Shown piece by piece: positions 1 through 12,954 of a DNA stretch of 13,867 bases. The stretch spans positions 1 to 13,867 of the forward strand of contig SCUQ01000297.1 in NCBI GenBank assembly GCA_004297635.1, in the 5' to 3' direction. Every line of letters begins with the position of its first letter. Position 1 is the stretch's first letter. The position numbers were made by a program, and so were the translations under genes. The notes beneath the pieces are model-generated. The model was not told the origin of the DNA, made no database searches, and saw only the letters and a list, made by a program, of their open reading frames with translations. Source of the DNA: Rhizorhabdus sp. (GTDB lineage Bacteria > Pseudomonadota > Alphaproteobacteria > Sphingomonadales > Sphingomonadaceae).

Positions 1-2
1 TC

Positions 3-692
3 ACCAATTTCCCGCTGATGCTCGCCGGACAGATCGGCTTCGCCTTTCTGGACGAGGGCGAGACCCCTTCGGTCGAGGTCTGGAAAGTGATGGGGGACGA
101 GGTGATCTTCGTCGCCAGCCCGGAACGTCCCGAAGCGCTGGTCAACATGCTGCTCGCACTGTTCCGCACGATGAACGCCTATGAGGAGCGCTATCTCGAA
201 GACCTGCCGCTGCGCCTGAAGGGTACCGCCTGGCTCGCCGATTTCGGCGGCCGCAACATCGAGCTGGAGATACCCGAGCTGTCGGGCGGCGAAGGCGTCC
301 GCGCGATCGACTTCATCGGCCCCGATCTGGACCTGGGCTTCCGCGTCACCAAATTCGCGCGCCCCGCCTGCCTCGCCTTGTCCTTCGATGTCGCGGACCT
401 CGTGATCGCGGCGGACAATGCCGGGGAGGCTGCGCTGCACCTGATCGGCGCCGAGGAACTGAAAGGCGTGATGTTCGGCCGCCCCTATCCGATCATCTGG
501 ATGCTGGAGGCCGGCACCGATTTCAACTTCATGCCCTGGGAAATCGAACAATGCCCGCACATGGCGAAGGCCGCGACGATGCCGCCGTCGCCGGTCTCCG
601 ACATCGAGCGCGCGATCGGCAATATGCGGCTCTACCTGCGCAAGATGCACGGCGTCGACAGGCCGAGGCTGAAACTGGGCAATAGCGGCTGA
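3..692 (+). CDS. Hypothetical protein, possibly nucleotide-cyclase-like, 5' end outside window
   Basis: The frame is open from the left edge, so the N-terminus is missing. An ATG at 18 exists, but the residues before it (TNFPL) read on naturally, so I treat that ATG as internal. About 229 residues are visible, with no membrane segment. The stretch around residues 23-33 counted from that ATG (VWKVMGDEVIFVA) looks like the metal-binding strand-turn-strand of class III adenylate/guanylate cyclases or GGDEF domains. A later stretch (DFIGPDLDLGFRVTKFARP, near residue 97) resembles the GxDVNxAARL region of class III cyclases. This assignment is inference from short motifs; the protein could be a catalytically inactive relative. 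It converges on the GFA-family gene with 44 bases between the stop codons. Confidence 0.7.
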   Translation, partial: TNFPLMLAGQIGFAFLDEGETPSVEVWKVMGDEVIFVASPERPEALVNMLLALFRTMNAYEERYLEDLPLRLKGTAWLADFGGRNIELEIPELSGGEGVRAIDFIGPDLDLGFRVTKFARPACLALSFDVADLVIAADNAGEAALHLIGAEELKGVMFGRPYPIIWMLEAGTDFNFMPWEIEQCPHMAKAATMPPSPVSDIERAIGNMRLYLRKMHGVDRPRLKLGNSG

Positions 693-736: not shown

Positions 737-1156
737 TCAGTCCGGCAGCACCCCGGACCCAAGGATGCGCGCCTCGCGCACATAGCCGAACTCGCCCCCC
801 GACCATGACCGGCCATCGGGATAGCGCAGCTCGATTCCGACAAGATCGTCCTCGTCCGCCAGACGCATGTTGACGCCCATCTGGCTGTTTCCGAACATGG
901 CCACCGCGCTCGCCGTGAGCGTGAAATGGGTGGTCGATCCACAGGAGCCGCAGAACTGGATTTCGGCGGCCGGCGCGTCCTTGTCCTTCCGGCTATAGCG
1001 GTTCGCCTGACCCTCCACCGTCACGTCGGACGGATGGAAATAGGCCCAGTCCGCGCCCGTCTTGCTGCACAGCGAGCAATTGCACGCATGGATGAAGTCG
1101 GGGCGCTTCGCGACGGCGATGCGGATCTGGCCGCAATGACAGGACAGCTTCAGCAT
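737..1156 (-). CDS. GFA-family zinc protein (CENP-V/GFA domain)
   Basis: A 139-residue protein matching the glutathione-dependent formaldehyde-activating (GFA/CENP-V) fold, a small beta-sandwich that binds structural and catalytic zinc. The cysteine pattern is complete: C6 and C8 (CHCG), C25, C27 and C30 (CNCSLC), then C69 and C72 (CGSCG). Length is normal for the family. Despite the family name, most members have no proven reaction with S-hydroxymethylglutathione, so the substrate is unknown. The ATG at 1156 is preceded by a G-rich stretch (TAGGGGGCG) that can act as ribosome binding site. It lies 69 bases downstream of the SpoIIE phosphatase gene on the same strand and may be co-transcribed with it. 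No functional link is apparent. Confidence 0.9.
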   Translation of the reverse strand: MLKLSCHCGQIRIAVAKRPDFIHACNCSLCSKTGADWAYFHPSDVTVEGQANRYSRKDKDAPAAEIQFCGSCGSTTHFTLTASAVAMFGNSQMGVNMRLADEDDLVGIELRYPDGRSWSGGEFGYVREARILGSGVLPD

Positions 1157-1225: not shown

Positions 1226-2842
1226 TCAACCCCGATACTGCACCACCAGGATCGCGATATCGTCGAACTGGGGGGCCGTCCCGACGAACAGGCCGACCCG
1301 ATCGGACAGGCCCGTCGTGATCGATTGCGCGCTATGGCCGTGCGCCAGTTCGGCCAACGCGGCGCTGATCCGCTCGACCGAGAACAGCTCCTCGTCGGCG
1401 GCGGTCGCCTCGGACACGCCATCGGTGAACAGCACCAGCGAATCGCCCGGCTCCAGCCGCACGGCGGCGCTTTCGAAATCGACGTCGTCGAACACGCCCA
1501 GCGCCATGCCCTCGGGCTTCGCCAGCCGGCTGACGCTGCCGTCGGCGCGGACCAGGAACGGCGCCTCATGGCCAGCATCGCTATATTCGACATGCCCGTC
1601 GCGCAGGTCGATGATGCCGGCAAAGGCGGTGACGAACAGATTGGCGACATTGTCGCGCGCCAGCTCGCTGTTGACCCGCGCCATCAGCGCGGCGGCCGAC
1701 GTCGACGTCATCGACGCCGCCTTGAACAGCGTGCTCGTCATCGCCATGAACAGCGCGGCGGGGACACCCTTGCCCGAAACGTCGCCGATCACGAAGAACA
1801 TCCGGTTCTCGTCGATCATGCCATAATTATAGAGGTCGCCGCCCACTTCCTTGGCGGGATCGAGCAGCGCATGGATGTCGATCTCCGCCCGTTCGGGAAA
1901 GGCGGGGAATTGCCGCGGCAGCATGCCGAGCTGGATGTCGCGCGCCGCCGATAGCTCGCCCTCGACCCGCTCGCGCGCCACCGTCGCCGCTTCCATCTCG
2001 ATCAGATAGCGCTGGAGCCGCGCGATCATTCCGGACATCGCTTCGGCCAGGCTGCCGACCTCGTCGGCGCGGGCGCCGCTGATCGCGCGCATTGCGTGCA
2101 GCTCCTCCTCGTTCGACTGGAAGCTGCGCTCCTCGATGCTGCGCGTATAGGATGTCAGCCGCACGAGCGGGCCGATGATGCGGCTGATCAGCAGCGATCC
2201 GACGATCATCGACAGCGCGAACATGGCCAGGCCGACGATGATCGATGTCCGCAGCGCCTGGTTCAGCCGCCGGTCGAGCGAGGCCAGCTCGACATCGGCA
2301 CCGACCACATAGGTCCGCCCGTCATAGGCCTGGATCGGCATGTAGATCGACCGGAAGCTGCCGAAACTGTCCTCATAATCGTCGAAGCGGACGCGCTTGT
2401 CGGCGAAGCCCTGATAGAGCTTGGCCGGGGCGGTATCATAGCGTGTCCAGTAACGGACGGCGGTGCCCGCCTTCTCTTCCCGCGGCGTGGCGCTGGTGGA
2501 GACGGTGTAGATGCTTCGTCCGATCCGCATATAGGTATAGACATAGACCAGCCCCGCGCGATCGGCGAAGCGCGACAGGGTCTGCTGCAGACGATCGAAT
2601 TCCGCCGGAGCGATCGAGTCCGGGCCATGGACGCGCGGGTGATAGTCCTCCGGCAATATCTCATGGACCGCATGCGCCGCCGTCCTCAGCTTGTTGTCGA
2701 TGCCGGTGATGATCTCGCGCCGGTCGATCATATAGAGCAGGGTCGAATAGGCGACCGCCGCGACCAGATTCAGCAGGAACAACAGCAGCAGCAATTGCGG
2801 CCTCAGGCCGAAGCGGCGGCGGCGCTTTTCAGCCTCGTTCAT
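1226..2842 (-). CDS. Membrane sensor SpoIIE/PP2C-type serine phosphatase with HAMP domain (RsbU-like)
   Basis: This 538-residue protein is built as TM (about 16-38), periplasmic sensor (about 39-198, Cache-like), TM (199-220), HAMP (221-275), a short coiled linker ending in ARDIQLGMLP, and a C-terminal SpoIIE/PP2C phosphatase (about 300-538). Catalytic motifs are intact: GGDLY with D336, GDVSGKG with D354, FTDGVSE with D474 and DDIAILVV with D527/D528. These aspartates hold the two metal ions. By family knowledge such enzymes dephosphorylate a phosphoserine on a STAS antagonist in response to the sensor. The obvious substrate here is the STAS protein at 8035-8367. The ATG at 2842 has an AAGGGG ribosome binding site about nine bases upstream. 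It is divergent from the transporter operon, with a 111-base shared intergenic region. Confidence 0.93.
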   Translation of the reverse strand: MNEAEKRRRRFGLRPQLLLLLFLLNLVAAVAYSTLLYMIDRREIITGIDNKLRTAAHAVHEILPEDYHPRVHGPDSIAPAEFDRLQQTLSRFADRAGLVYVYTYMRIGRSIYTVSTSATPREEKAGTAVRYWTRYDTAPAKLYQGFADKRVRFDDYEDSFGSFRSIYMPIQAYDGRTYVVGADVELASLDRRLNQALRTSIIVGLAMFALSMIVGSLLISRIIGPLVRLTSYTRSIEERSFQSNEEELHAMRAISGARADEVGSLAEAMSGMIARLQRYLIEMEAATVARERVEGELSAARDIQLGMLPRQFPAFPERAEIDIHALLDPAKEVGGDLYNYGMIDENRMFFVIGDVSGKGVPAALFMAMTSTLFKAASMTSTSAAALMARVNSELARDNVANLFVTAFAGIIDLRDGHVEYSDAGHEAPFLVRADGSVSRLAKPEGMALGVFDDVDFESAAVRLEPGDSLVLFTDGVSEATAADEELFSVERISAALAELAHGHSAQSITTGLSDRVGLFVGTAPQFDDIAILVVQYRG

Positions 2843-2953
2843 GACATCTTGCCCCTTGCATCGGCCGGCGTTCGCCCCGAAAGCTCTATCGCATCACCGG
2901 ACGGGCAGCGGTAGCCCCTACGGAAAGAAGGGGGTCGGGGTCTGAACCCTGGG
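2843..2953. promoter_or_regulatory. Divergent intergenic region between phosphatase and transporter operon
   Basis: This 111-base gap separates two divergent genes of the same putative signalling module, so it should hold both promoters. I see no convincing -35/-10 pair on either strand. On the minus strand AAGGGG (2855-2860) serves the phosphatase. On the plus strand a purine/G-rich run (2922-2940) lies unusually far, about 14-30 bases, before the transporter ATG at 2954. Confidence 0.45.
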
Positions 2954-5371
2954 ATGCAGCGCTTCTTGAACCGACTGCTCCGGGTAAATCCCGGCGAATG
3001 GCCGAAACTGGCGCAGTTCGGCCTGTTCGGTTTCCTCCTGCAGATGGGATTGGGCATCGGCTTCTCGGCTGGTGACGCCGCCTTCCTCGCCCATGCCGGT
3101 GCCGATCGGCTGGCGCTGATCTTCATGATGACCCCGGTGGTGATGCTGCTCTACACGGCGGTCTTCTCCTATCTGCTCGTCCGCTTCTCGATCGAGCGGG
3201 TGATCGATGCGACGATCGCGCTGCTCGTCGTCGGGGGCCTGCTGTCCTGGGCCATCCTGGGCATGGCCCTGCCCGACGCCTGGGAGCTGCCGGTCTATTT
3301 CGGCCTGAAGCTCTATCTGGCGATGTGGTACATCGCGCTCTACTCGCTGTTCTGGAACTATATCGACGGCTATTTCACGATCCAGGACGGCAAGCGGCTC
3401 TTCCCGCTGCTCGCCGCGGCGATGGCGTTCGGGATGACCTGCGGCGGGCTGCTCGTCAGCCAGCTGGCCGGCACCGTTTCGCTGCGCGGCTTCTTCCTGA
3501 TCTGGGCGGGGATCGCGGTCGTGACCCTGCCGGTCGCGCTGCTGGTCCGGCGGCGCTGGGCGCGGATCGCCGACAGCGAGGTCGACGAAAGCGGCGGCGG
3601 CAATGTCGCCGGCCAGATCCGCCAGGTGATGAAGACCTTCCGTACCTCGCGCTACACGCTGATCCTCACCTTCACCCTGTTCGTCACCCTGCTGATGACC
3701 AATCTCGCCGAGTTCCAATATTCGAGCGTCTTCCAGCAGGGCCGCAGCGAGGCGGAACTGGCGAGCCTGCTCGGCCGGCTCTACGCGGCGGCGAACATCT
3801 TCAACGTCTTCGTCTGCCTGTTCGTCTTCACCCGGCTGGTCGGCCGGATCGGCGTGCGCAACGTCGCGCTGATCATGCCGCTGGCCTATTTCACCGCCTT
3901 CGGCATCCTGTTCGTGACCGGCTCGTTCGAAGGCGCGCTCGCCGCCTTCTTCGCCTATCACGGCATCCTGACCTCGATCGAATATAACAACCAGAACCTG
4001 CTCTTCAACGCGGTCCCGTCCGAGACGAAGCGGCCGGTGCGCACCATCGTCGAGGGGCTGGCCGAGCCGCTCGCCAGCTTCGTCGCGGGCGGCTTCCTCT
4101 TCTACGCCGCCGAGCGCACCGATATCCGCGAACTATCGGGCATCGGCGTGATCCTCGGGGTGATGCTGCTGCTGGTCGTCATCGTGCTGCGCCAGCTCTA
4201 TCCCACCGCGATGGCCCGCAACATGCAGGCGATGCTGCTCGATTTCGGCGCCCGTCGCCGGATCGCCCCCGCCGCCGCCGGCGACCCCGCGCCAGCGACC
4301 GCCGATCTGATCGCGCGCCTCCGCACCGCCCAGGGCGAGGAGCGCGATCGGCTGATCGCCCGGCTCCATGCGGGCCGCGACGTCGAAGCCCTGCCCGACA
4401 TATTGACCTGTGCCGCGGGGCTCAGCCCGCAGGACCGGCACGCCATCGAGCATATGATCATCGACTGGGGCGATATCGCGATCCCCCGCCTGATGGCGGC
4501 GATGTCCGATGGCGCCCAATCCTATCGCGGCCGCTCGGTTGCCGCCCGCGCGCTCGCCCGGCTCTCCGCCCCGATTTTCGCCTGGCGGCTCGACGATATG
4601 GTCCGCGAGGAGCTGGGCCGCGCCGAGCCGCGCTTCGCGCTGGCCGAGGCGCTGGAAGCGGTGCCCGAGCCGACCCGCGCTACCCGTACCCTCGCCCGGC
4701 TCCAGCGGCAGCAGATTGCCCAGGCGACCGATTTCGCGATCGAACTGCTGGCGCTCGGCGGACGACTGCCGGACTATGATCTGCTGATCGTCTCGCTGCA
4801 CTCGAACAACCCCAAGGTGCGCGCCAATGCGATCGAGGCGATCGAGAATGGCACCGACCGGCCGACCTTCCTGACGCTCAGGGCGCTGATCGAGGCGCGC
4901 CCGGCGACCGCGCCGCGTCCGGAGCAATTGCTCGCCATGCTCGGCGATCGGCTCGCGTCGCCCAGCACGGTCGAGCTGATCGCCGCCGCCCAGGCGATCC
5001 GCGATCTTGCCCCGCCCGAAGAGCGCGCCGCGCGTCTCCGCCCCGCGCTGCGCCCCGGTCTCCATGCGCTGGGCCGATCCACCATCGCGGCCTTGCTCGG
5101 CCTGCCTGGCAGCACCGCCGTCACGCTGATCGACAGGATCGACGGCATAGCCGGCATGCCGCAATTCGCGGCCGCCTCGATCGAGGTGCAGACCCGCCTC
5201 GCGCTTGCGCTGACCGGCACCCGGCCGGCCGACGACGCCGTCGCCGTGCACGTCGCGGGCGCGCCGCCGCTGTGGCTGGCCGCCGACATCATACGCGACC
5301 TCGCCGTCCGGCAGGTCGATCTCGCCCTGGCGATGTACCGGGCCAGGGACGATCGCGCCTATGCGGCCTGA
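2954..5371 (+). CDS. Npt/TLC-like (MFS superfamily) polytopic membrane protein with C-terminal HEAT-repeat domain
   Basis: An 805-residue protein in two parts. Residues about 18-415 are very hydrophobic, with roughly 10-12 membrane helices, and resemble the ATP/ADP-translocase (Npt1/Npt2, TLC) branch of the MFS superfamily. The segment RLFPLLAAAMAFGMTCGGLL (148-167) matches the conserved 'R-L-F-x-L-x-x-x-x-x-x-G-x-x-x-G' region of that group. Residues about 450-800 are soluble and alpha-helical, in repeated helical pairs rich in Ala, Leu, Arg and Glu (for example LHSNNPKVRANAIEAIENG, 615-633), consistent with HEAT repeats on the cytoplasmic side. Whether it transports nucleotides or acts as a sensor is unknown. 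The ATG at 2954 has only GGG directly before it and no well-placed Shine-Dalgarno, so the start is uncertain; a CTG at 2942 is in frame. The next gene starts inside its last codons (11-base overlap), indicating translational coupling. Confidence 0.88.
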   Translation: MQRFLNRLLRVNPGEWPKLAQFGLFGFLLQMGLGIGFSAGDAAFLAHAGADRLALIFMMTPVVMLLYTAVFSYLLVRFSIERVIDATIALLVVGGLLSWAILGMALPDAWELPVYFGLKLYLAMWYIALYSLFWNYIDGYFTIQDGKRLFPLLAAAMAFGMTCGGLLVSQLAGTVSLRGFFLIWAGIAVVTLPVALLVRRRWARIADSEVDESGGGNVAGQIRQVMKTFRTSRYTLILTFTLFVTLLMTNLAEFQYSSVFQQGRSEAELASLLGRLYAAANIFNVFVCLFVFTRLVGRIGVRNVALIMPLAYFTAFGILFVTGSFEGALAAFFAYHGILTSIEYNNQNLLFNAVPSETKRPVRTIVEGLAEPLASFVAGGFLFYAAERTDIRELSGIGVILGVMLLLVVIVLRQLYPTAMARNMQAMLLDFGARRRIAPAAAGDPAPATADLIARLRTAQGEERDRLIARLHAGRDVEALPDILTCAAGLSPQDRHAIEHMIIDWGDIAIPRLMAAMSDGAQSYRGRSVAARALARLSAPIFAWRLDDMVREELGRAEPRFALAEALEAVPEPTRATRTLARLQRQQIAQATDFAIELLALGGRLPDYDLLIVSLHSNNPKVRANAIEAIENGTDRPTFLTLRALIEARPATAPRPEQLLAMLGDRLASPSTVELIAAAQAIRDLAPPEERAARLRPALRPGLHALGRSTIAALLGLPGSTAVTLIDRIDGIAGMPQFAAASIEVQTRLALALTGTRPADDAVAVHVAGAPPLWLAADIIRDLAVRQVDLALAMYRARDDRAYAA

Positions 5372-6485
5372 CGGTATCCCCATCCGGGCGCTGCTGCTCC
5401 GGGCCTTTCTGCCGGCGATCGCGATTGTCGCGATCGGGCTCGGCCTGCTCACCTATAACCGGCTCTACGATGCGATCCTCGACGGCTTCGACCGCAAGCT
5501 GATCGCCACCAGCGCATTGACGGGGGCACTGCTCGATCCGGTCGACCATGACCGGCTGATCGCCATCGCGCGCACCGAACCCGACACCGATATCGCCGAG
5601 CGCAGCCCCGAATATCGGCACGCGGTCCTGCCGATGCAGCGAATTCGCGGCGGGCTCGACATCACCTATCTCTATACCCAGATCCTCGGCGGATCGCAGG
5701 ACATCATCTATGTGCTCGACGCGACCGTCGGCGAAGAACATTCGCGGATCGGATCGGAAGACGATCTCCCCGCCGAGACGCTGGCCGGGATCAGGCGCGT
5801 CCAGGCGAAGGATGTGATCCACCTCTCGCCGATCGAATTCCAGCAGCAATGGGGCCTGCTCAAGACCGCGGCGGCGCCGGTCCGCAATGCCGGCGGTCGG
5901 ATCGTGGCGACGGCCGGTGCCGACGTGAACGTCTCGCTGATTCGGGTCGCGACCCAGAACGCGCTGTTCGCCAGCGTCGTGATCGGCATGGTCTCGTTGC
6001 TGGCCTGCACGCTCGTCACGCTGCTGATCGTGCGCAGGATCGCCCGCCCCCTCGACCGGCTCCGCCATGAAGCGCTCCGTATCGCCGGCGGCAACCATCG
6101 GCCGATCGCCCCCTTTCCCGCGCCGGCCGACATCGCCGGCCTGCAGACGGCCCTGTCGGACAGCTGCTCGACGCTGACCGGCCGGCTTGCCGACGCGCGG
6201 AGCGCCGCCGGGGCGGCCACGCTCTCCGCCAGCCTCGCCGCCTTCGATGCCGAACTGGCAAGGGCCGGCGCCGCGCCCCATCTCCATTTTGAAAGCGCCG
6301 CATCCGACAGCGGGGCGCTGCTCCGCCGCGCTGCCGCCGCCCGGCTCGCGGAGCGGATCATCGCCGATCCCACGCTTGCCGATCGGATCGAAGACGAGGG
6401 ACCGCTGCTTGCCCTCGCGGACCGCGAACAGGCCGTGGCGGTGCGCGACGATGGCCGCCGCATCGTCATCGGACGCGGCGCATGA
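5361..6485 (+). CDS. Two-TM sensor protein with HAMP domain and no recognised output domain
   Basis: A 374-residue protein with TM1 (about 10-32), a periplasmic sensor region (33-199), TM2 (200-225) and a HAMP-like segment (226-275). The final ~100 residues are an Ala/Arg-rich helical tail that matches no enzyme domain I recognise; there is no histidine kinase, phosphatase, GGDEF or methyl-accepting motif. The periplasmic part resembles that of the neighbouring SpoIIE phosphatase: DITYLYTQI...IIYVLDAT here compares with LVYVYTYM...IYTVSTSAT there, and both end in a 'G-x-x-x-x-x-x-G-A-D-V' strand before TM2. It therefore looks like a paralogous sensor whose phosphatase domain has been lost or replaced. 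It overlaps the upstream gene by 11 bases and the next gene by four (ATGA), so it sits within the operon. Signal transfer presumably goes through protein contacts; this is inference. Confidence 0.85.
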   Translation: MRPDGIPIRALLLRAFLPAIAIVAIGLGLLTYNRLYDAILDGFDRKLIATSALTGALLDPVDHDRLIAIARTEPDTDIAERSPEYRHAVLPMQRIRGGLDITYLYTQILGGSQDIIYVLDATVGEEHSRIGSEDDLPAETLAGIRRVQAKDVIHLSPIEFQQQWGLLKTAAAPVRNAGGRIVATAGADVNVSLIRVATQNALFASVVIGMVSLLACTLVTLLIVRRIARPLDRLRHEALRIAGGNHRPIAPFPAPADIAGLQTALSDSCSTLTGRLADARSAAGAATLSASLAAFDAELARAGAAPHLHFESAASDSGALLRRAAAARLAERIIADPTLADRIEDEGPLLALADREQAVAVRDDGRRIVIGRGA

Positions 6486-6847
6486 TCGAGCGGTTGCGCC
6501 GGCTGCCTGGCTTCGACCGGCTGGACGATGCCGCGCTCGCGGTGATCCTCGCCCGCGCCACGGTTCGCCGCTTTGCCTCAGGCCAGCTCGTCCTCCCGGC
6601 GGGTGGCAGCGCCGACATGCTGCTCGCGCGCATCGGGGGGGCGCTTGTCGGCGTCAGCGGGAAGGCCGCGCCGCCGGTGTTCGATGCGCCGGGGCTGCTG
6701 TTCGGACTGGCGGTGGAGGAAGACTATCTGGCCGGCCCCGAAGGACTGGAGGCGATCGCCATCGCCAAGCCGCATGTCTTCACCATCGCCCGCGAGTTTC
6801 CCGAGTTCATCGTGTCGCTGATGGACGATGCGGGAACCGCCGCATGA
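6482..6847 (+). CDS. Small protein resembling a degenerate cyclic-nucleotide-binding (Crp-like) domain
   Basis: A 121-residue protein with no membrane segment and no DNA-binding helix-turn-helix. Its opening, 'LRRLPGFDRLDDAALAVILA' followed by RRFASGQLVLPAGGSADMLL (29-48), closely follows the start of cNMP-binding domains: two helices, then a beta strand with F-x-x-G-x-x-L-x-x-x-G. The region where the phosphate-binding cassette (G-E-x-x-x-L-x-x-x-x-R-x-A) should be reads GLLFGLAVEEDYLAGPEGLE (71-90) and lacks the conserved Arg. Nucleotide binding is therefore doubtful. As family knowledge, some Npt-HEAT proteins carry a fused cNMP domain; here it may be a separate subunit. ATGA overlaps on both sides (four bases each) put it firmly in the operon. 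The start at 6482 is set by that overlap. Confidence 0.8.
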   Translation: MIERLRRLPGFDRLDDAALAVILARATVRRFASGQLVLPAGGSADMLLARIGGALVGVSGKAAPPVFDAPGLLFGLAVEEDYLAGPEGLEAIAIAKPHVFTIAREFPEFIVSLMDDAGTAA

Positions 6848-8031
6848 GCGTGCGGATCATCATCGTCCTGCTGGCGCTCCCGCTGTTCCTGCTGCTTGCC
6901 GCGGCGAACAGCCTGTTGCTCTACCAGCAGGAGGTCGACGACGTGGAGCAGGGCCTGCGGGGCGAAGCGCTCGCGGCGGCGGTGACGGTCGCCGAATTCG
7001 CCCGTGGCATGGATGATCCCGTCGCGGAGCTGGCCCGGCCCGCCCGGCTCGCCGCGATCCGCGCCGCCGGCGCGAAGATTCCGGGGCTCGACGCCCTCTA
7101 CCTCGCCGCACCCGACGGCCGCATTCTCAACCTGCTCGATCGGCCCGCGATCGTCCGATACAGCCTCAAGGCGCCTGAGCGACCGATCATCGTCGGCGAC
7201 TGGCACGACGATGCGCGCCAACCGCTGATCGCTGCGCGTGCGCCCGCCGGCCGGGGTTATGTGGCTGTCGCGGATATCGATGCGACGCCGCTCACCCGGC
7301 GCGCCTTCCATCTGAAGCGGCTGTCGGCCGCGCTGATCGCCGGTTCGGCGGCCCTGGCGATCCTGCTCGGGCTGGTCGTCGCCACGCGTGTGACGCGCGA
7401 ATTCCGCCGGACGCGGTCGATCATCGCATCGCATGGCGGCGACGTGCCCGGCGAGGCACTCGGCATCCGTGAGGTGCGCGACCTAGCCGATGCCATCGGC
7501 CTGATCGACAAGAGCGTGACCGCCGAGCAGGCCCGGCTGGACGACGGGAGCGAACCGGATCTCGCCGCCGCCATTGCCTCGCTGCGCGAGCAACATTTCC
7601 CCGACATCTCGGAAAGCCGCGACGGTATCGAACTGTCGATCCGTTCGCTGCCGAGGGCTGCGGCCGGCGCTTTTCACCTCCATCGGATCGAGGACGGCCG
7701 CTGCACCGTCATCCTGGGAATGGTGGACGGCGCCCCGGCCGAAGCCCTGGCCTCGGCCATCGCGATGCGGGATTATGTCATGGCGGGCGCAGCCGGAGAT
7801 TTCGAGACGCGGCTGGAGCTGGCCGCGCTGGCCTTCGGCGCGGAGTGGACGAAGACGACTGTCACCGGCGCGCAGCCGATGGCCGTCGCGTTACGGGACG
7901 AGGCCGGCGCGATCGGCGCCTATCTGGGCCATGTCCCCGATCTCGATCCCGACAGCCTCACGGCCGATCTCGCGATTCTCTATCCCGATGCCGGTATCGT
8001 CGCGGCGGCGCGGCCGATCCCGCGGGGATGA
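6844..8031 (+). CDS. Two-TM sensor with degenerate SpoIIE-like phosphatase domain (predicted pseudophosphatase)
   Basis: I chose the ATG at 6844, which overlaps the previous stop as ATGA; the frame is open much further upstream, but that part lies under other genes. The 395-residue protein has TM1 (4-26), a periplasmic sensor (27-159), TM2 (160-181), a short HAMP-like linker and a cytoplasmic domain (about 235-395). That domain follows the order of the intact SpoIIE phosphatase in this window: LREQHFPDI matches the IQLGMLPRQFPAF region; AAAGAFHLHRIEDGRCTVIL (272-291) matches EVGGDLYNYGMIDENRMFFV; LGMVDGAPAEAL (291-302) matches IGDVSGKGVPAAL; and LAILYPDAGIVAA (376-388) matches LVLFTDGVSEA. 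Two metal-binding Asp positions are Ala276 and Met293, and the domain is clearly shorter. Catalysis is therefore unlikely. A role as a binding or scaffold protein for the STAS partner is inference. Its stop lies only three bases from the convergent STAS gene's stop. Confidence 0.87.
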   Translation: MSVRIIIVLLALPLFLLLAAANSLLLYQQEVDDVEQGLRGEALAAAVTVAEFARGMDDPVAELARPARLAAIRAAGAKIPGLDALYLAAPDGRILNLLDRPAIVRYSLKAPERPIIVGDWHDDARQPLIAARAPAGRGYVAVADIDATPLTRRAFHLKRLSAALIAGSAALAILLGLVVATRVTREFRRTRSIIASHGGDVPGEALGIREVRDLADAIGLIDKSVTAEQARLDDGSEPDLAAAIASLREQHFPDISESRDGIELSIRSLPRAAAGAFHLHRIEDGRCTVILGMVDGAPAEALASAIAMRDYVMAGAAGDFETRLELAALAFGAEWTKTTVTGAQPMAVALRDEAGAIGAYLGHVPDLDPDSLTADLAILYPDAGIVAAARPIPRG

Positions 8032-8034
8032 GGT

Positions 8035-8367
8035 TCAGCCCAGTTTCGCCAGTGCCGCCTCGACATCGGGCTCGATCGTGAAGATCTTCGAGAAACCGCT
8101 GATATCGAACACTTCGCGCACCGCCGGCGCCACCCCGGTGATCGTCAGGCTGTGGCCGGCCGCCTTGGCCGCCTTGGCGCCGATCAGCAAAACGCGCAGC
8201 CCCGCCGAACTGACATAGGGGACATTGCCGAGGTCCAGCACCACCGCGCCGTTCTCCTTGACGCGGGCCGGCAGTACCGCCTCGAGCGCGCCTGCCGTGC
8301 TGCTGTCGAGCCGCCCGGCCGCCGAAATCACGAGCGCGCCGTCTCGGCTATTTTCGCTGATGTCCAT
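8035..8367 (-). CDS. STAS-domain anti-sigma factor antagonist (RsbV/SpoIIAA-like)
   Basis: A 110-residue single-domain STAS protein. The family pattern is clear: DGALVISAAGRLDSSTAGAL at residues 9-28, then AVVLDLGNVPYVSSAGLRVL (41-60). The conserved phosphorylatable serine is most likely S54, with S53 adjacent; the Asp often found before it is replaced, as in many proteins with a 'Y-[IV]-S-S-A-G-L-R' motif. By family knowledge the unphosphorylated form binds the kinase and frees that kinase's target, and a SpoIIE phosphatase regenerates it. I preferred the ATG at 8367 (MDISENS) because the domain begins there. An in-frame ATG at 8412 would add 15 residues, and neither start has a strong ribosome binding site. 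It is divergent from the kinase gene at 8492 and convergent with the pseudophosphatase gene. Confidence 0.92.
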   Translation of the reverse strand: MDISENSRDGALVISAAGRLDSSTAGALEAVLPARVKENGAVVLDLGNVPYVSSAGLRVLLIGAKAAKAAGHSLTITGVAPAVREVFDISGFSKIFTIEPDVEAALAKLG

Positions 8368-8491
8368 CTGGTCTAGAATCCGATCCGGGCCGCCTGTTCG
8401 GCATAGCTGCATATCAGGAGTGGATGTCCATTTTCCACACGATTATCGCCGAAGCGGTTCCGGGCGGCACGATGGGGCCGGACGGTGAAGC
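8368..8491. promoter_or_regulatory. Divergent intergenic region between STAS and kinase genes
   Basis: About 124 bases that must drive two divergent partner-switch genes. On the minus strand GGAAC (complement of 8457-8461) is followed after 15 bases by CGTG (complement of about 8438-8441). This is close to, but not the same as, the alphaproteobacterial EcfG general-stress promoter (GGAAC, 16-17 bases, CGTT). A GATAAT-like hexamer lies between them. On the plus strand GGTGAAG just before 8492 can serve as ribosome binding site. The promoter reading is tentative. Confidence 0.3.
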
Positions 8492-8893
8492 ATGACCGCC
8501 GCTAGCTTCACGCGCCGGCAACGCGCGACCGAGGCCGACCTTCCGGCCCTGATAGGCGCGATCGAGGACTGGCTGGAGCACGCCGGCGTTCCGCCCGCAG
8601 ACGTCGCGCGGCTGATGATCGCCTTCGACGAGGTACTCAGCAATATCGCCCATCATGGCGGCGGCACCGTCGACCTGGCCATCACCAGCGACGCCGGCGC
8701 CGTGACCGCGGTGATCGCGGACGACGGCCCTCCGTTCGACCCGCTCGCCCTGCCCGCCCCCGACACCAGTCTTGGGATCGACGAGCGCGCGGTCGGCGGG
8801 CTCGGCATCCACCTCGTCCGGGAAATGATGGACGAGGTCCGCTACGCCTATGATCACGGGCGCAACATGCTGACATTCCGCAAGACTTTCTGA
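8492..8893 (+). CDS. Anti-sigma-type serine kinase, HATPase_c_2 (RsbW/SpoIIAB-like)
   Basis: A 133-residue single-domain GHKL ATPase of the RsbW type. The N-box is FDEVLSNIAHHG (45-56), with E47 as likely catalytic base and N51 for magnesium. The G1 box is IADDGPPFDP (75-84) and the G2 box is VGGLGIHLVREM (101-112). There is no phospho-acceptor histidine and no membrane segment, as expected for the family. By family knowledge these proteins phosphorylate their STAS antagonist and sequester a target, classically a sigma factor but in other systems a cyclase or response regulator. The divergent STAS neighbour is the likely partner. The ATG at 8492 follows GGTGAAG, and an in-frame stop lies just upstream, which fixes the start. 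It is followed 41 bases later by the SET-domain gene. Confidence 0.92.
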   Translation: MTAASFTRRQRATEADLPALIGAIEDWLEHAGVPPADVARLMIAFDEVLSNIAHHGGGTVDLAITSDAGAVTAVIADDGPPFDPLALPAPDTSLGIDERAVGGLGIHLVREMMDEVRYAYDHGRNMLTFRKTF

Positions 8894-8934
8894 GCGTTTC
8901 GCGCTAGCCTGACCGCCTTGCGAAAGGGTTGCCG

Positions 8935-9399
8935 ATGACATCTGCGCCGGAGTGGGCAACGGCACGGACCATGGACGACGAGGCGCTGGAGGTGCTCCGC
9001 ATCGACGAGCGTCGCGGCCTTGGCGTGCGTGCGCGACGGGGCTTCGCGGCGGGCGAGGTCATGCATCGCTTCGCGGGTGTGGTCGGCGAGACGATCTGCC
9101 AGCACAGCCTTCAGGTCGATGCCGAGCGGCATATCAGCGGCACCCGCTATATCGGCTATCTCAGCCATGGCTGCGATCCCAACGCGCGGCTCGACATGGC
9201 CGGCTTCGCGCTGATCGCATTGCGCGCGATCGCCCCCGGCGAGATCGTGACGATCGACTATGCCGCGACCGAGGACCGCCTCCACCGCCAGTTCGCCTGC
9301 ACCTGCGGCGCGGCCGTCTGTCGCGGCTGGATTCATGGCCGGGGCGAAGGCCCCGATGCCCGGGGCATGGCCTGGCGCGCGGATCATGATGTCGCCTGA
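8935..9399 (+). CDS. Small SET-domain protein (putative protein lysine methyltransferase)
   Basis: A 154-residue protein made almost entirely of a SET fold with a post-SET-like tail. The N-terminal strand is RRGLGVRARRGFAAGEVMHR (26-45), matching the 'G-x-G-[VL]-x-A-x-x-x-[IF]-x-x-G-E' opening of SET domains. LSHGCDPNARL (76-86) corresponds to the SAM-binding N-H-S-C-x-P-N motif, with Ser for the first Asn. IAPGEIVTIDYA (99-110) corresponds to G-E-E-[IL]-x-x-x-Y. A CTCGAAVCRG cluster (121-130) matches the post-SET C-x-C-x(4)-C. By family knowledge it should transfer methyl groups from SAM to lysine; the substrate is unknown. The ATG at 8935 has a GAAAGG site about seven bases upstream; a TTG at 8929 is the alternative. 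It overlaps the decarboxylase-like gene by 14 bases. Confidence 0.87.
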   Translation: MTSAPEWATARTMDDEALEVLRIDERRGLGVRARRGFAAGEVMHRFAGVVGETICQHSLQVDAERHISGTRYIGYLSHGCDPNARLDMAGFALIALRAIAPGEIVTIDYAATEDRLHRQFACTCGAAVCRGWIHGRGEGPDARGMAWRADHDVA

Positions 9400-10594
9400 A
9401 TGGTGGACGCGCGATGACCTGCGGCGCGGCACCGACGGCAGGCTGATCTTCGCGGGCCACGATGTCGCGGCGCTGGCGGCGGAGCATGACCGTCCCCTCT
9501 TCCTCTACAATGGCGCCCGCATCCGCGCCAACGCCGCCCGGCTTCGCGCCGCCCTGGCCGTCTCGGGCTGCGCGCACCGGCTCTATTATGCGATGAAGTG
9601 CAACCGCTTCCCCCCGCTGCTCCGCATGCTGGCGGCCGAAGGCGGGATCGGCATCGACATCTGCTCGCCCGACGAGATGGATCTGGCCATCGCCTGCGGT
9701 TTCGCGCCCGGCGACATCAGCTTCACCGGCACCGCCGTGGCCCCGCGCGATCTCGATCGGCTGCTCGCCCGCCCCGATCTCCACATCAACTGCGACTCGC
9801 TCGCCCAGATCCGGATGATCGGCGAGCGCACGCCGGGCCGGACGATCGGCATCCGGGTCAATCCCGGCCTCGGCACGGGCTATGGCGACAGCGCGCGGCT
9901 CACCTATGCCGGGGAACGCACCACCAAATTCGGTATCTATCGGGAACAATGGGCGGACGCGCTCGGTCTCGCCGCGCGCTATGGACTGACCGTCTCGACC
10001 ATCCATTTCCATGTCGGCTGCGGCTATCTCTCGCAACAGCTGGACGCCTGGGACGCCGCGGTCGGCGAAGCCGCCAGCTTCCTCGCCGATCTTCCGCAGG
10101 CGACCACGGTGAACATCGGCGGCGGCCTGGGCCTGCCGCATCGCGCGGGCGAGCCACCGCTCGATCTCGCCCGCTGGTCGGCGATCATCGCGCGGCATTT
10201 CGGCGGACGCGGCCTCACCGTCGCCGTCGAGCCGGGCGACTATCTGGTCAAGGATGCCGGGCTGCTGCTGCTCTCGGTCGTGTGGGTCGAGCGCAAGCGC
10301 GACACGCTGTTCGTCGCGGTTGACGGCGGCTTCAACCTCCATCCCGAACCGGCCCATTACGATCTGCCGTGCGAGCCTGTCGCCTGCACCGTGCGGGAGC
10401 CGGACCCAAGCCGCTGGCACGCCGTCACGGTCGCCGGCAACATCAACGAGGCGCTCGACCTCTGGGCCGAGGACCATCCCATGCCGCCGCTGCGCGAAGG
10501 TGATCGGATCGCGCTGATCAATGCGGGCGGCTATGGTTCGGCGATGAGTTCGAACCACTGCATGCGCGGCGACTTCGTCGAACTGCTGATCTGA
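9386..10594 (+). CDS. Fold-type III PLP-dependent decarboxylase-like protein (DapDC/ODC family)
   Basis: A 402-residue protein of the alanine-racemase-fold decarboxylases. The PLP lysine is K71 in YYAMKCN. IHFHVGCG (206-213) and the glycine loop NIGGGLGLP (243-251) hold the cofactor. GGYGSAMSSNHCMRGDF (381-397) matches the C-terminal 'G-A-Y-x-x-x-M-x-S-x-Y-N' motif. Two motifs depart from classical enzymes: the phosphate-binding EPGR is EPGD (282-285), and the C-[DE]-S-x-D loop carrying the essential Cys from the partner subunit reads NINEALD (352-358). The substrate, and even decarboxylation, are therefore uncertain; diaminopimelate, ornithine and lysine types are possible relatives. I chose the ATG at 9386 (GGATC before it); 9389 is equally possible. 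It overlaps the SET gene by 14 bases and should be translated with it. Confidence 0.88.
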   Translation: MMSPEWWTRDDLRRGTDGRLIFAGHDVAALAAEHDRPLFLYNGARIRANAARLRAALAVSGCAHRLYYAMKCNRFPPLLRMLAAEGGIGIDICSPDEMDLAIACGFAPGDISFTGTAVAPRDLDRLLARPDLHINCDSLAQIRMIGERTPGRTIGIRVNPGLGTGYGDSARLTYAGERTTKFGIYREQWADALGLAARYGLTVSTIHFHVGCGYLSQQLDAWDAAVGEAASFLADLPQATTVNIGGGLGLPHRAGEPPLDLARWSAIIARHFGGRGLTVAVEPGDYLVKDAGLLLLSVVWVERKRDTLFVAVDGGFNLHPEPAHYDLPCEPVACTVREPDPSRWHAVTVAGNINEALDLWAEDHPMPPLREGDRIALINAGGYGSAMSSNHCMRGDFVELLI

Positions 10595-10623: not shown

Positions 10624-12849
10624 CTATGCCCCGGCCTGCGCGGCCAGGAAGCGCGCCTCGATGTCGGCCATGTCGAGCGGCCTCGCCAGCAGAAAGCCCT
10701 GCAGCGCAGCGCAGCCGATACTGGTCAGGAACAGCCGCTGCTGCTCGGTCTCGACTCCCTCGGCGGTGGTCTCCAGCCCGCTGAGCCGGGCCAGGCCGAC
10801 AATCGCCTGGATCACCGGGCTGCCGGGTTTGCCCGGCTGGATCGTCGACACGAAGCTCTGGTCGATCTTGACCCGATCGACCTCCAGCCCGGCGAGATGC
10901 TTGAACGAGGAATAGCCGGTGCCGAAATCGTCCAGCGCGATCCGCACGCCGACATCGCGCAGCCAGCCGAGGCTGCTGCGGCATTTCTCGCTGCTGTCGA
11001 GAAAACTGGTCTCGGTGATCTCCAGCTCGAGCCGGGCGGGCGAAAGCCGCGTGCGCTTCAGGATCGAGAACACCCGCTCGGCGAGCGCCGCGTTGCGAAG
11101 CTGCACCGCCGACAGGTTGACCGAGATCGTTCCGGTCGGCCAGCGCGCCGCGGCCAGGCAGGCCTGCTCCAGCACCCATTCGTTGAGTGTTTCGATCAGC
11201 CCGCATTCCTCGGCGATCGGGATGAACTGATCGGGCAGCATCGTTCCGCGATCGGCATGCTGCCAGCGGATCAGCGCCTCCGCGCCGATCAGTGCGCCCG
11301 TTCGGGCCTCGAAATAGGGCTGGTAGACGATATCCAGCCCTTCGCCGGTGCGCATCGCCTCGCGCAGATCGGCCTCGATCCCGTTGCGGTCGCGGACCCG
11401 CTCTCCCATCGCGGCGGTGTAGAAGGCATGGCGACGGCGCCCGCCGCGCTTGGCTTCGTACAGCGCGATGTCGGCGGCCCGCACCAGATCGACCGGGCTG
11501 CCCGCATCCCGCGGCGCCACCGCGATGCCGATGCTCGCACCGATCAGCACCTCGCCATCGCCCAGGTCAATAGGGCGGGCCAGCGCGCGATGGATGCCAC
11601 GGGCCAGCGTCTCGGCCGATGTCGCCGCCGGATCGCCGAAATGGATGATCGCGAACTCGTCGCCGCCCAGTCGGGCGACCACGTCATCGGGCGCGATATC
11701 CGACAGGATGCGGGACAGCGCGCAGATCAGCTGGTCGCCGGTCGGGTGCCCGAAATGATCGTTGACGTTCTTGAAGTGATCGAGATCGACATAGAGCAGC
11801 GCGAGCGATCGGCCGCCCTCCGCCACCCGCGCCAGCTCGATGCCGAGCCGCTTGTCGAACAGCGCGCGGTTGGCGAGGCTGGTCAGCGGATCATGGTCGG
11901 CCAGATGCTGGGCGCGCGACGTGGCGGCGCTGAGCTGGAGGGTGCTGAACCGTATGCGGCGCAGCAGCCATGTGACGATCGCGAACACGATGATGAGCGA
12001 GGCACCCAGCGCGGGGGCGACCTGACCGAGCATCGCCGTGCCGGGCAGGAAGGGCTCCCACACGAAATAGCCGAGCAGCGAGCCGCTGCGCGTACGCAGG
12101 GCAACGCGGCTCAGCCCCGGATCGTCGGGCAGCTTCGCTGCGAAGCGCCCGCCGCCCAGCTCATAGCGGCCGGCGATATCCGCAATGAAACTGCCGTCGA
12201 GGTAGCGGATGCTGACATGGATATATTCGCTGCCAGGACGCTGCGGGCGCTCGCCGGTATCGGAAACGATCGGCTTGGCGCTGACGATGGCGGGATGGCC
12301 GTTGATCATGCCGAGGTCGATCGCCCCCGGCGTGAGCACGGCGCTGGCGCGGCGAATGGGCAGACCGTTGCGCATGCGGACGCGCAGCTCGGTCAGCAGA
12401 GGCTGAGCGGTGATGCGGACGAGCCGGGCGGCGCCGGCGATATCGTCGCGCCGGCCTTCCCGCATCGCGTAGATCAGCCGATCGTTCGGATCGACGATCA
12501 TGATCTCGTCGTGGCCGTAATAGCTGTGAAACCAGATGCCGAGATTGTCATCGAGCCATCGGAGGTCGATCGGTCGCTTGCGCAGCTCGTCGACGCTGTC
12601 GTCCCAGACCGTCGCGGCCTCCTGATCATGGGCGATCGACCGGAAATTCTGTTCCAGCACCGTCGCGATCAGCTTCTGCTGGCGCGCGATCGACAGCTCG
12701 TCGGCCTTGCGGGCGGCGACCAGCATGAAGCCGGCGAGCAACGCCGCCATCAGCAGGACGATCACGACCGAGCGGATGATGATCTGCGGCACGAACGCTT
12801 CGTGCCGCTCGCTGGAGACGAGCGCGCCAAGGCGCCGGAGACGCTCCAT
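10624..12849 (-). CDS. Membrane CHASE4-GGDEF-EAL cyclic-di-GMP turnover protein
   Basis: A 741-residue protein: TM1 (about 21-45), a periplasmic CHASE4-type sensor (about 60-260, with ATVWDDSV and LGIWFHSYYGHDEIMIVDP), TM2 (about 275-297), GGDEF (about 315-475) and EAL (about 490-735). The cyclase motif GGDEF (395-399) is intact. The inhibitory site R-x-x-D, expected five residues before it, reads APDD, so product inhibition is probably absent. EAL residues look complete: EALIRW (524-529), SVNLS, ELEITET, IALDDFGTGYSS (with DD at 640-641), VKIDQ and TAEGVETE. Both synthesis and hydrolysis of c-di-GMP are therefore possible; which dominates cannot be told from sequence. I chose the ATG at 12849; a TTG at 12870 would add seven residues. 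Neither has a strong ribosome binding site. It ends by convergence with the decarboxylase-like gene. Confidence 0.92.
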   Translation of the reverse strand: MERLRRLGALVSSERHEAFVPQIIIRSVVIVLLMAALLAGFMLVAARKADELSIARQQKLIATVLEQNFRSIAHDQEAATVWDDSVDELRKRPIDLRWLDDNLGIWFHSYYGHDEIMIVDPNDRLIYAMREGRRDDIAGAARLVRITAQPLLTELRVRMRNGLPIRRASAVLTPGAIDLGMINGHPAIVSAKPIVSDTGERPQRPGSEYIHVSIRYLDGSFIADIAGRYELGGGRFAAKLPDDPGLSRVALRTRSGSLLGYFVWEPFLPGTAMLGQVAPALGASLIIVFAIVTWLLRRIRFSTLQLSAATSRAQHLADHDPLTSLANRALFDKRLGIELARVAEGGRSLALLYVDLDHFKNVNDHFGHPTGDQLICALSRILSDIAPDDVVARLGGDEFAIIHFGDPAATSAETLARGIHRALARPIDLGDGEVLIGASIGIAVAPRDAGSPVDLVRAADIALYEAKRGGRRRHAFYTAAMGERVRDRNGIEADLREAMRTGEGLDIVYQPYFEARTGALIGAEALIRWQHADRGTMLPDQFIPIAEECGLIETLNEWVLEQACLAAARWPTGTISVNLSAVQLRNAALAERVFSILKRTRLSPARLELEITETSFLDSSEKCRSSLGWLRDVGVRIALDDFGTGYSSFKHLAGLEVDRVKIDQSFVSTIQPGKPGSPVIQAIVGLARLSGLETTAEGVETEQQRLFLTSIGCAALQGFLLARPLDMADIEARFLAAQAGA

Positions 12850-12954
12850 CACCAAGACATCGGCTCGCAACGCAGCAACATTACCGGATCATCGTCCCCC
12901 TGCGGATCGATCTACTCCGAAAATTGCCCGAAAGCCACCGCCCAGCGCTGCCGG

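Follow-up and report, generated by a model that had tools for sequence, protein, structure and literature searches.

In the Rsb paradigm of partner switching, a phosphatase dephosphorylates a STAS protein, which takes the kinase from its partner (PMC8256260). Chlamydia is described as having a living RsbU (CT588) together with a next-numbered membrane paralogue, CT589, in which the metal residues are missing (PMC4552016, PMC5177608). Fusions of an NTT domain to a HEAT domain, some with a cNBD gene directly behind, were reported in 2017 to form one monophyletic group that is widely conserved and has no known function (PMC5381601). RbaV/RbaW is presented as an Rsb-type STAS-kinase pair whose output is unclear (PMC8256260). 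Here, we analysed a locus in which a complete set of partner-switch genes accompanies an NTT-HEAT fusion, in a stretch of 13,867 nucleotides from Rhizorhabdus sp. (GCA_004297635.1, contig SCUQ01000297.1). This stretch, hereafter the window, is an entire contig (C435) of a genome that is 82% complete and 2.73 Mb in size. An Rsb-type switch is not in itself unprecedented in alphaproteobacteria, given RbaV/RbaW of the alphaproteobacterium Rhodobacter capsulatus. A preliminary description of the window had claimed that a full partner switch is tied here to a HEAT-tailed NTT/MFS-like membrane protein. Synteny across 34 loci supports this core claim, and the locus, which is real and wider than first claimed, appears to encode a variant form of partner switching. 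No report of NTT-HEAT proteins paired with partner-switch genes was found in the open-access literature, and the word SpoIIE is absent from the main text of the 2017 study (PMC5381601).

To collect loci, 22 relatives of the 805-residue NTT-HEAT protein were aligned, and a search of a genome collection with this alignment retrieved 32 loci; one extra locus came from a plasmid of Sphingomonas paeninsulae, which together with the window gives n = 34. The loci belong to Rhizorhabdus/Sphingomonas, Novosphingobium, Sphingopyxis, Sphingorhabdus, Erythrobacter and Phenylobacterium, and a few are metagenome-assembled genomes (MAGs) with names to family, order or class only. The NTT-HEAT gene is the anchor of every locus, and all counts of loci express conservation given that gene. 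The genes concerned are, in the window:

1-692, plus strand: g1, predicted class III nucleotide cyclase-fold protein, truncated at its 5' end where the contig begins
1226-2842, minus strand: membrane sensor (HAMP)-SpoIIE-type PP2C phosphatase (Pfam SpoIIE; 34/34 loci)
2954-5371, plus strand: NTT-HEAT protein of 805 residues, with an MFS/NTT-like membrane domain (about 1-420) and a HEAT-type domain (about 430-805); anchor of the locus search
5361-6485, plus strand: membrane HAMP sensor protein with a variable C-terminal tail, paralogue of the SpoIIE sensor half (34/34 loci)
6482-6847, plus strand: small CNBD-like protein of 121 residues with a degenerate phosphate-binding cassette (profile matches; 34/34 loci)
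6844-8031, plus strand: membrane sensor (PAS/Cache-like)-pseudo-PP2C protein of 395 residues, ATG at 6844 (34/34 loci)
8035-8412, minus strand: STAS anti-anti-sigma-type antagonist (Pfam, TIGR00377; 32/34 loci)
8492-8893, plus strand: RsbW-type Ser kinase, HATPase_c_2 (Pfam; N box and GGLG conserved; 32/34 loci)
8929-9399, plus strand: SET-domain protein methyltransferase that carries a post-SET-like CxCx4C (Pfam, 3.5e-07; 32/34 loci)
9386-10594, plus strand: LysA-like pyridoxal phosphate (PLP) decarboxylase (Pfam; 32/34 loci)

We found that the order and orientation of these genes are kept. In 34/34 loci, the genes present run g1(+), SpoIIE(-), NTT-HEAT(+), HAMP(+), CNBD(+) and pseudo-PP2C(+), followed, where the right-hand genes are present, by STAS(-), kinase(+), SET(+) and decarboxylase(+). 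The phosphatase, HAMP, CNBD and pseudo-PP2C genes occur in every locus; g1 occurs in 33/34 and is missing only from L039, at a contig end. The four right-hand genes are all absent from the same two loci: in L055 the contig ends before them, and in L045 they are grouped at a second site of that genome (L132). The seven genes of the preliminary description, phosphatase to kinase, are thus found together, ordered and with orientation kept in the 34 loci that have the 805-residue protein, L045 and L055 being the exceptions. The preliminary description was to be refuted if the transporter-HEAT operon usually occurred without the phosphatase, STAS and kinase genes, and the loci examined show the opposite. 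The overlaps of the four-gene operon described there are also real: the NTT-HEAT and HAMP genes overlap by 11 nucleotides in 33/34 loci and the CNBD and pseudo-PP2C genes by 4 nucleotides in 32/34 (start codons script-chosen), and the four are presumably co-transcribed. The conserved block amounts to about ten genes and reaches beyond the seven, since SET, decarboxylase and the class III cyclase-fold gene also belong to it. The lowest pairwise protein identity, gene by gene, is 25-57% (28 loci). We consider it almost certain that the genes of the block form one functional unit. Two local variants were also seen. In a Sphingopyxis MAG (L047, 12393-13781), one open reading frame (ORF) holds both the HAMP-protein and the CNBD matches; in L045, the one genome with a split block, the pseudo-PP2C gene is followed by a SIMPL-like and a tyrosine-integrase-like gene (15389-18152; both named by eye).

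The phosphatase, the STAS antagonist and the RsbW-type kinase make up the full set of a switch, and all three are intact, as first described. They score above the Pfam cut-offs (SpoIIE 1.1e-50, STAS 6.2e-18, HATPase_c_2 4.4e-25), the STAS protein is above the cut-off for TIGR00377 as well, and the key residues are kept. Five checked Asp positions of the phosphatase, which we take to be metal-binding, are D in 18/18 rows (18 of the 34 loci). The YVSSAGL stretch of the STAS protein, in which the phospho-acceptor serine was assigned by homology, is invariant in 32/32 rows. In the kinase, the N-box Asn is found in 32/32 rows and the Glu in 31/32, and the GGLG motif is conserved. By analogy, the STAS protein is very probably phosphorylated by the kinase and dephosphorylated by the SpoIIE-type phosphatase. 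The genome of the window has a second SpoIIE gene (on C71), with no STAS or kinase match within its 10-kb stretch. A second SpoIIE-STAS-kinase cluster is present in a relative (G298; L140, C11), and we take it to be a different system because its matches are much weaker (1e-19, 1e-9 and 4e-5).

Behind the kinase, the SET and decarboxylase genes follow closely on the same strand. The SET domain is above its Pfam cut-off, and its His, its Cys and the Tyr of IDY are invariant in 31/31 rows (the fused L064 omitted). The decarboxylase reaches 198.5 bits against the LysA family TIGR01048, below the cut-off of 297.9, and its PLP Lys is invariant in 31/31 rows (the cut L057 omitted). At a site placed by eye, where LysA has Cys-Glu-Ser, all 31 rows have Asn-Glu-Ala, and the substrate therefore probably differs from that of LysA. 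The start of the protein is probably near 9386 and not at the ORF start at 9260, because family conservation begins at about residue 48 of that frame. SET and decarboxylase are fused into one protein in Novosphingobium mangrovi (L064) and in P0217, whose source is labelled as a Magnetospirillaceae MAG; the two fused proteins share 61% identity, so that one or two fusion events are possible. Elsewhere, in P0199, a decarboxylase of the same family is fused behind a DUF559 nuclease-like domain.

At the other end of the block, g1 is predicted to be a class III nucleotide cyclase-fold protein. Its structure was modelled with confidence as a class III cyclase homology domain fold. D9, D66, K62, D137 and R148 are kept in 31/31 rows, and we assign them, by motif, to the two metal Asp, the adenine-specifying Lys/Asp and the transition-state Arg; what we take to be the position of the transition-state Asn holds Asp144 in all 31. 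No Pfam family matched g1, Guanylate_cyc included, and its comparison by hhalign with 16 cyclase domains (cut from 30 cyclase loci of the genus) gave a probability of 0.4; a PDB profile match to 1ybt has an E value of only 0.066. The first 38 residues of g1 are the end of another contig of the same genome (C241), where a porin gene precedes it.

The genes between the phosphatase and the STAS antagonist encode what may be a membrane assembly. The 805-residue protein had been described as a transporter-HEAT fusion. Pfam matches among the 22 relatives are MFS_1 in 15, HEAT_2 in 13 and TLC in 10; the HEAT tail is supported further by the C-terminal profile, which matches artificial HEAT-type proteins (a synthetic fusion best, at 3.9e-22; alphaRep 6fsq at 1e-15). 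Hydropathy over an 80-row alignment places the membrane segments in residues 28-413, with one weak peak at 603-607, and the invariant columns lie mostly in the membrane half. The HAMP protein matches the SpoIIE family over sensor and HAMP (hhalign, probability 98, E 1.5e-13) and is a paralogue of the phosphatase's sensor half; its tail shows no relation to PP2C by hhalign and has no recognisable output domain. The small protein has no Pfam match as a single sequence, and profile searches relate it to CNBD proteins (1.7e-14 as a sum over repeated domains; 5.5e-6 against 1vp6, which has a single domain). Its cassette lacks the Glu and the Arg of the phosphate-binding motif, which was placed by eye, Leu76 and Gly85 standing there in 18/19 rows each. 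The label 'cNMP-like' was hence right as to homology, with a degenerate cassette; with that pair gone, the protein is unlikely to sense any cyclic AMP that g1 might make.

The 395-residue protein was modelled as a sensor plus a PP2C fold. In an alignment of 74 rows (loci and database proteins), which is weak against SpoIIE in the stretch of the metal Asp residues, residue 276 (aligned to SpoIIE D336, the first metal Asp) is Asp in 0/74 rows (Ser 31, Cys 20, Ala 17, others 6), and residue 293 (aligned to D354, the second) is Glu in 53/74 and Asp in 1/74; residue 275 is an invariant Gly. The name pseudophosphatase given to it at the outset is right, by the modelled fold and by aligned metal positions that are nearly never Asp. 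Its closest fold matches include the PP2C domain of SiaA, and among the sensors that its sensor part resembles are the Cache domains of amino-acid chemoreceptors, a likeness of fold and not of ligand. Grouped around one living phosphatase, two seemingly inactive sensor proteins, a degenerate CNBD and a carrier-like HEAT protein look like a receptor complex.

Few genomes carry the block, and its distribution is patchy. With the transporter profile, we found it in 1/385 genomes of an even draw from the class (E up to 1e-20) and in 2/398 of a draw from the phylum (E up to 1e-10). Orthologues of the decarboxylase (E up to 1e-60) occur in 4/296 genomes of the order, the same four that have strong, near-full-length NTT-HEAT matches; 16 further genomes of the order have weak or partial NTT-HEAT matches only. 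Within the genus, 9/14 genomes have NTT-HEAT, and the same nine have g1 and a decarboxylase orthologue of 76-100% identity; the remaining five have only decarboxylases that are about 30% identical. Across 309 genomes, decarboxylase and NTT-HEAT fall on the same 12 (p of about 8e-22 if independent, shared descent ignored). In 28 loci (six of the 34 dropped as incomplete or fused), correlations between the distance matrices of the ten proteins range from 0.57 to 0.97, with 0.97 for pseudo-PP2C and NTT-HEAT (shared ancestry not removed). The unit thus looks old and, as far as the sequences indicate, has mostly been inherited whole, with some exchange.

We propose that the block encodes a partner switch that is gated at the membrane and acts on something other than a neighbouring sigma factor; this is the best explanation of the whole, and we give it an even chance of being right. 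An assembly of the NTT-HEAT protein, the HAMP protein, the pseudo-PP2C protein and the pseudo-CNBD would read a periplasmic or transported ligand and gate the active SpoIIE-type sensor phosphatase, the HAMP and pseudo-PP2C proteins being sensor-phosphatase paralogues without evident output or activity. The phosphatase would then strip the phosphate from the STAS serine, and the dephosphorylated STAS protein would bind the kinase, which would drop its other partner. We hold it probable that the NTT-HEAT assembly is the input. It is a more tentative suggestion that the SET methyltransferase-decarboxylase pair is the output, taken as the kinase's likeliest partner or effector because it lies behind the kinase gene and is as constant as the kinase. 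In the classical operon, this place behind the kinase is occupied by sigB. The proposal as a whole draws support from the conserved order, the co-occurrence, the SET-decarboxylase fusions, the homology of the HAMP-protein and phosphatase sensors and the correlated pseudo-PP2C and NTT-HEAT distances, from the residues kept in the phosphatase, STAS, kinase, SET and decarboxylase proteins and not in pseudo-PP2C or CNBD, and from the split block of L045, in which STAS, kinase, SET and decarboxylase are still together.

Several observations weigh against this proposal. For the 805-residue protein of the window, the MFS_1, TLC and HEAT matches all lie under the Pfam cut-offs (HEAT at 0.013 for this protein alone). 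The whole-length match of the pseudo-PP2C protein to SpoIIE (87.7%) rests mainly on the sensor half, and its PP2C domain alone gave no significant match to PP2C by hhalign. STAS and SpoIIE distances correlate at just 0.58, and the trees of the left five and right four genes have 14/25 splits in common and conflict with strong support in 4 pairs, a sign that there may have been some mixing. Moreover, co-inheritance has no power to tell which protein the kinase holds.

The main rival is that the switch is canonical, with a kinase that is the anti-sigma factor for a distantly encoded sigma factor, and that the SET, decarboxylase and cyclase genes share no more than their regulation with it. Sigma factors are the classical partners of RsbW-type kinases (PMC8256260), and the RsbW of Chlamydia is reported to target the primary sigma factor, which is encoded elsewhere (PMC4552016). 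Here, however, no sigma family was found among the window proteins scanned, as the preliminary description had noted, and inspection by eye, which was no family scan, picked out none in the recurrent flank ORFs that were listed. EcfG, sigma54 and sigma32 promoter patterns were found in the two divergent intergenic regions in 0/34 and 0/32 loci when strict and, for a relaxed EcfG pattern, in 1/34 and 0/32, a null result that bears on the regulation of the block and not on the target of the kinase. We regard a distant sigma factor as less likely than not.

It is still less probable, in our view, that the switch controls transport, the STAS protein or the kinase docking on the HEAT tail to toggle a carrier of nucleotides or other compounds whose cargo the enzymes process. 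A tuning of NTT-mediated ATP uptake by the cNBD was suggested in 2017 (Major 2017, PMC5381601), a porin adjoins the block in 21/34 loci and its right end has a glutaminase-type gene nearby in 8/34, and most invariant NTT-HEAT columns are in the membrane half; yet NTT-HEAT fusions are functionally uncharacterised in that same source (PMC5381601), and the presence of three sensor-type proteins and of two degenerate domains suggests signalling, not transport. An output through cyclic di-GMP metabolism, by way of the CHASE4-GGDEF-EAL protein encoded at 10624-12870, had been raised on the ground of its proximity in the window, and the plasmid copy has an annotated diguanylate cyclase in its vicinity. 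The orthologue is present, however, in only 5/34 loci (the window, L037, L038, L039 and L044; four other loci end earlier), and the plasmid has one further, weaker GGDEF match; this largely refutes it as a general output and leaves it very improbable. That the association is chance, or the passive synteny of unrelated genes, is hardly credible: one gene did retrieve all 34 loci and the relatives share a history, but the order is kept across Sphingomonadales and Phenylobacterium, the block is present or absent patchily as one unit, and the plasmid copy (Sphingomonas paeninsulae, 850 kb) is intact.

Other genes flank or interrupt the block. The porin (TorF/Gcw_chp) stands before g1 in 15/34 loci (PF09694 for two copies), and a weaker relative (E 6e-19 to 2e-25) stands directly behind the decarboxylase in 6/34; its occurrence at both ends suggests that the association is probably genuine. 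The glutaminase-type gene (Pfam for the L060 copy) is found in L056, L059, L060, L061, L062, L063, L065 and L066, seven of them labelled Phenylobacterium and one an alphaproteobacterium MAG. A GFA-family gene lies between g1 and SpoIIE in the window (737-1156) and was matched in 0/32 collection loci. A reading as anti-phage defence was rejected: PADLOC gave no match for ten proteins.

Since NTT-HEAT fusions are widespread and uncharacterised, the locus matters in supplying a strict genetic context for them, and one with an assayable readout, the phosphorylation of one STAS protein. If our proposal is true, enzymes would take the place of the sigma factor in this partner switch. The locus also combines living with dead sensor phosphatases, which in free-living bacteria is new to us and is otherwise known to us only from Chlamydia. 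A bolder generalisation, which we think doubtful, is that NTT-HEAT fusions are receptors (transceptors) of partner switches, and that the switch drives the SET-decarboxylase pair, not a sigma factor; the carrier domain would sense its cargo, and the HEAT tail and the dead PP2C paralogue would relay its state to the living phosphatase.

Compared with RbaV/RbaW, the locus shares a STAS and kinase pair in an alphaproteobacterium, and we know of no association of RbaV/RbaW with NTT-HEAT, SET or decarboxylase genes. HsbR-HsbA-HsbD and SiaABCD of Pseudomonas aeruginosa are described likewise as partner-switch-type modules with second-messenger or other outputs; unlike these, whose outputs are given as passing through a diguanylate cyclase or RpoS, the block has no diguanylate cyclase-type gene as a conserved neighbour. 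For the Chlamydia RsbU/CT589 pair, we know of no link to a SET, decarboxylase or cyclase gene. The resemblance there lies in a membrane sensor phosphatase with a membrane paralogue whose PP2C domain is metal-less, and Chlamydiaceae, as here, also have an NTT-HEAT fusion (PMC5381601); the RsbU switch of Chlamydia, in contrast to the block, is reported to target sigma66 (PMC4552016, PMC5177608). With RsbU-RsbV-RsbW and SpoIIE-SpoIIAA-SpoIIAB, as outlined in PMC8256260, the locus shares an active SpoIIE-type phosphatase, a STAS protein with conserved serines and a HATPase_c_2 kinase, and it differs from them in a block without a sigma gene, in SET and decarboxylase behind the kinase and in an NTT-HEAT assembly within the locus. 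Like the NTT-HEAT(-cNBD) fusions described by Major et al. 2017 (PMC5381601), it has an NTT/MFS-like domain, a HEAT tail and a cNBD protein in the same operon; unlike in those, the cNBD is degenerate and the HAMP protein lies in between. Should the transceptor reading hold generally, it would extend to Chlamydia, with its RsbU, its dead RsbU paralogue and its NTT-HEAT protein.

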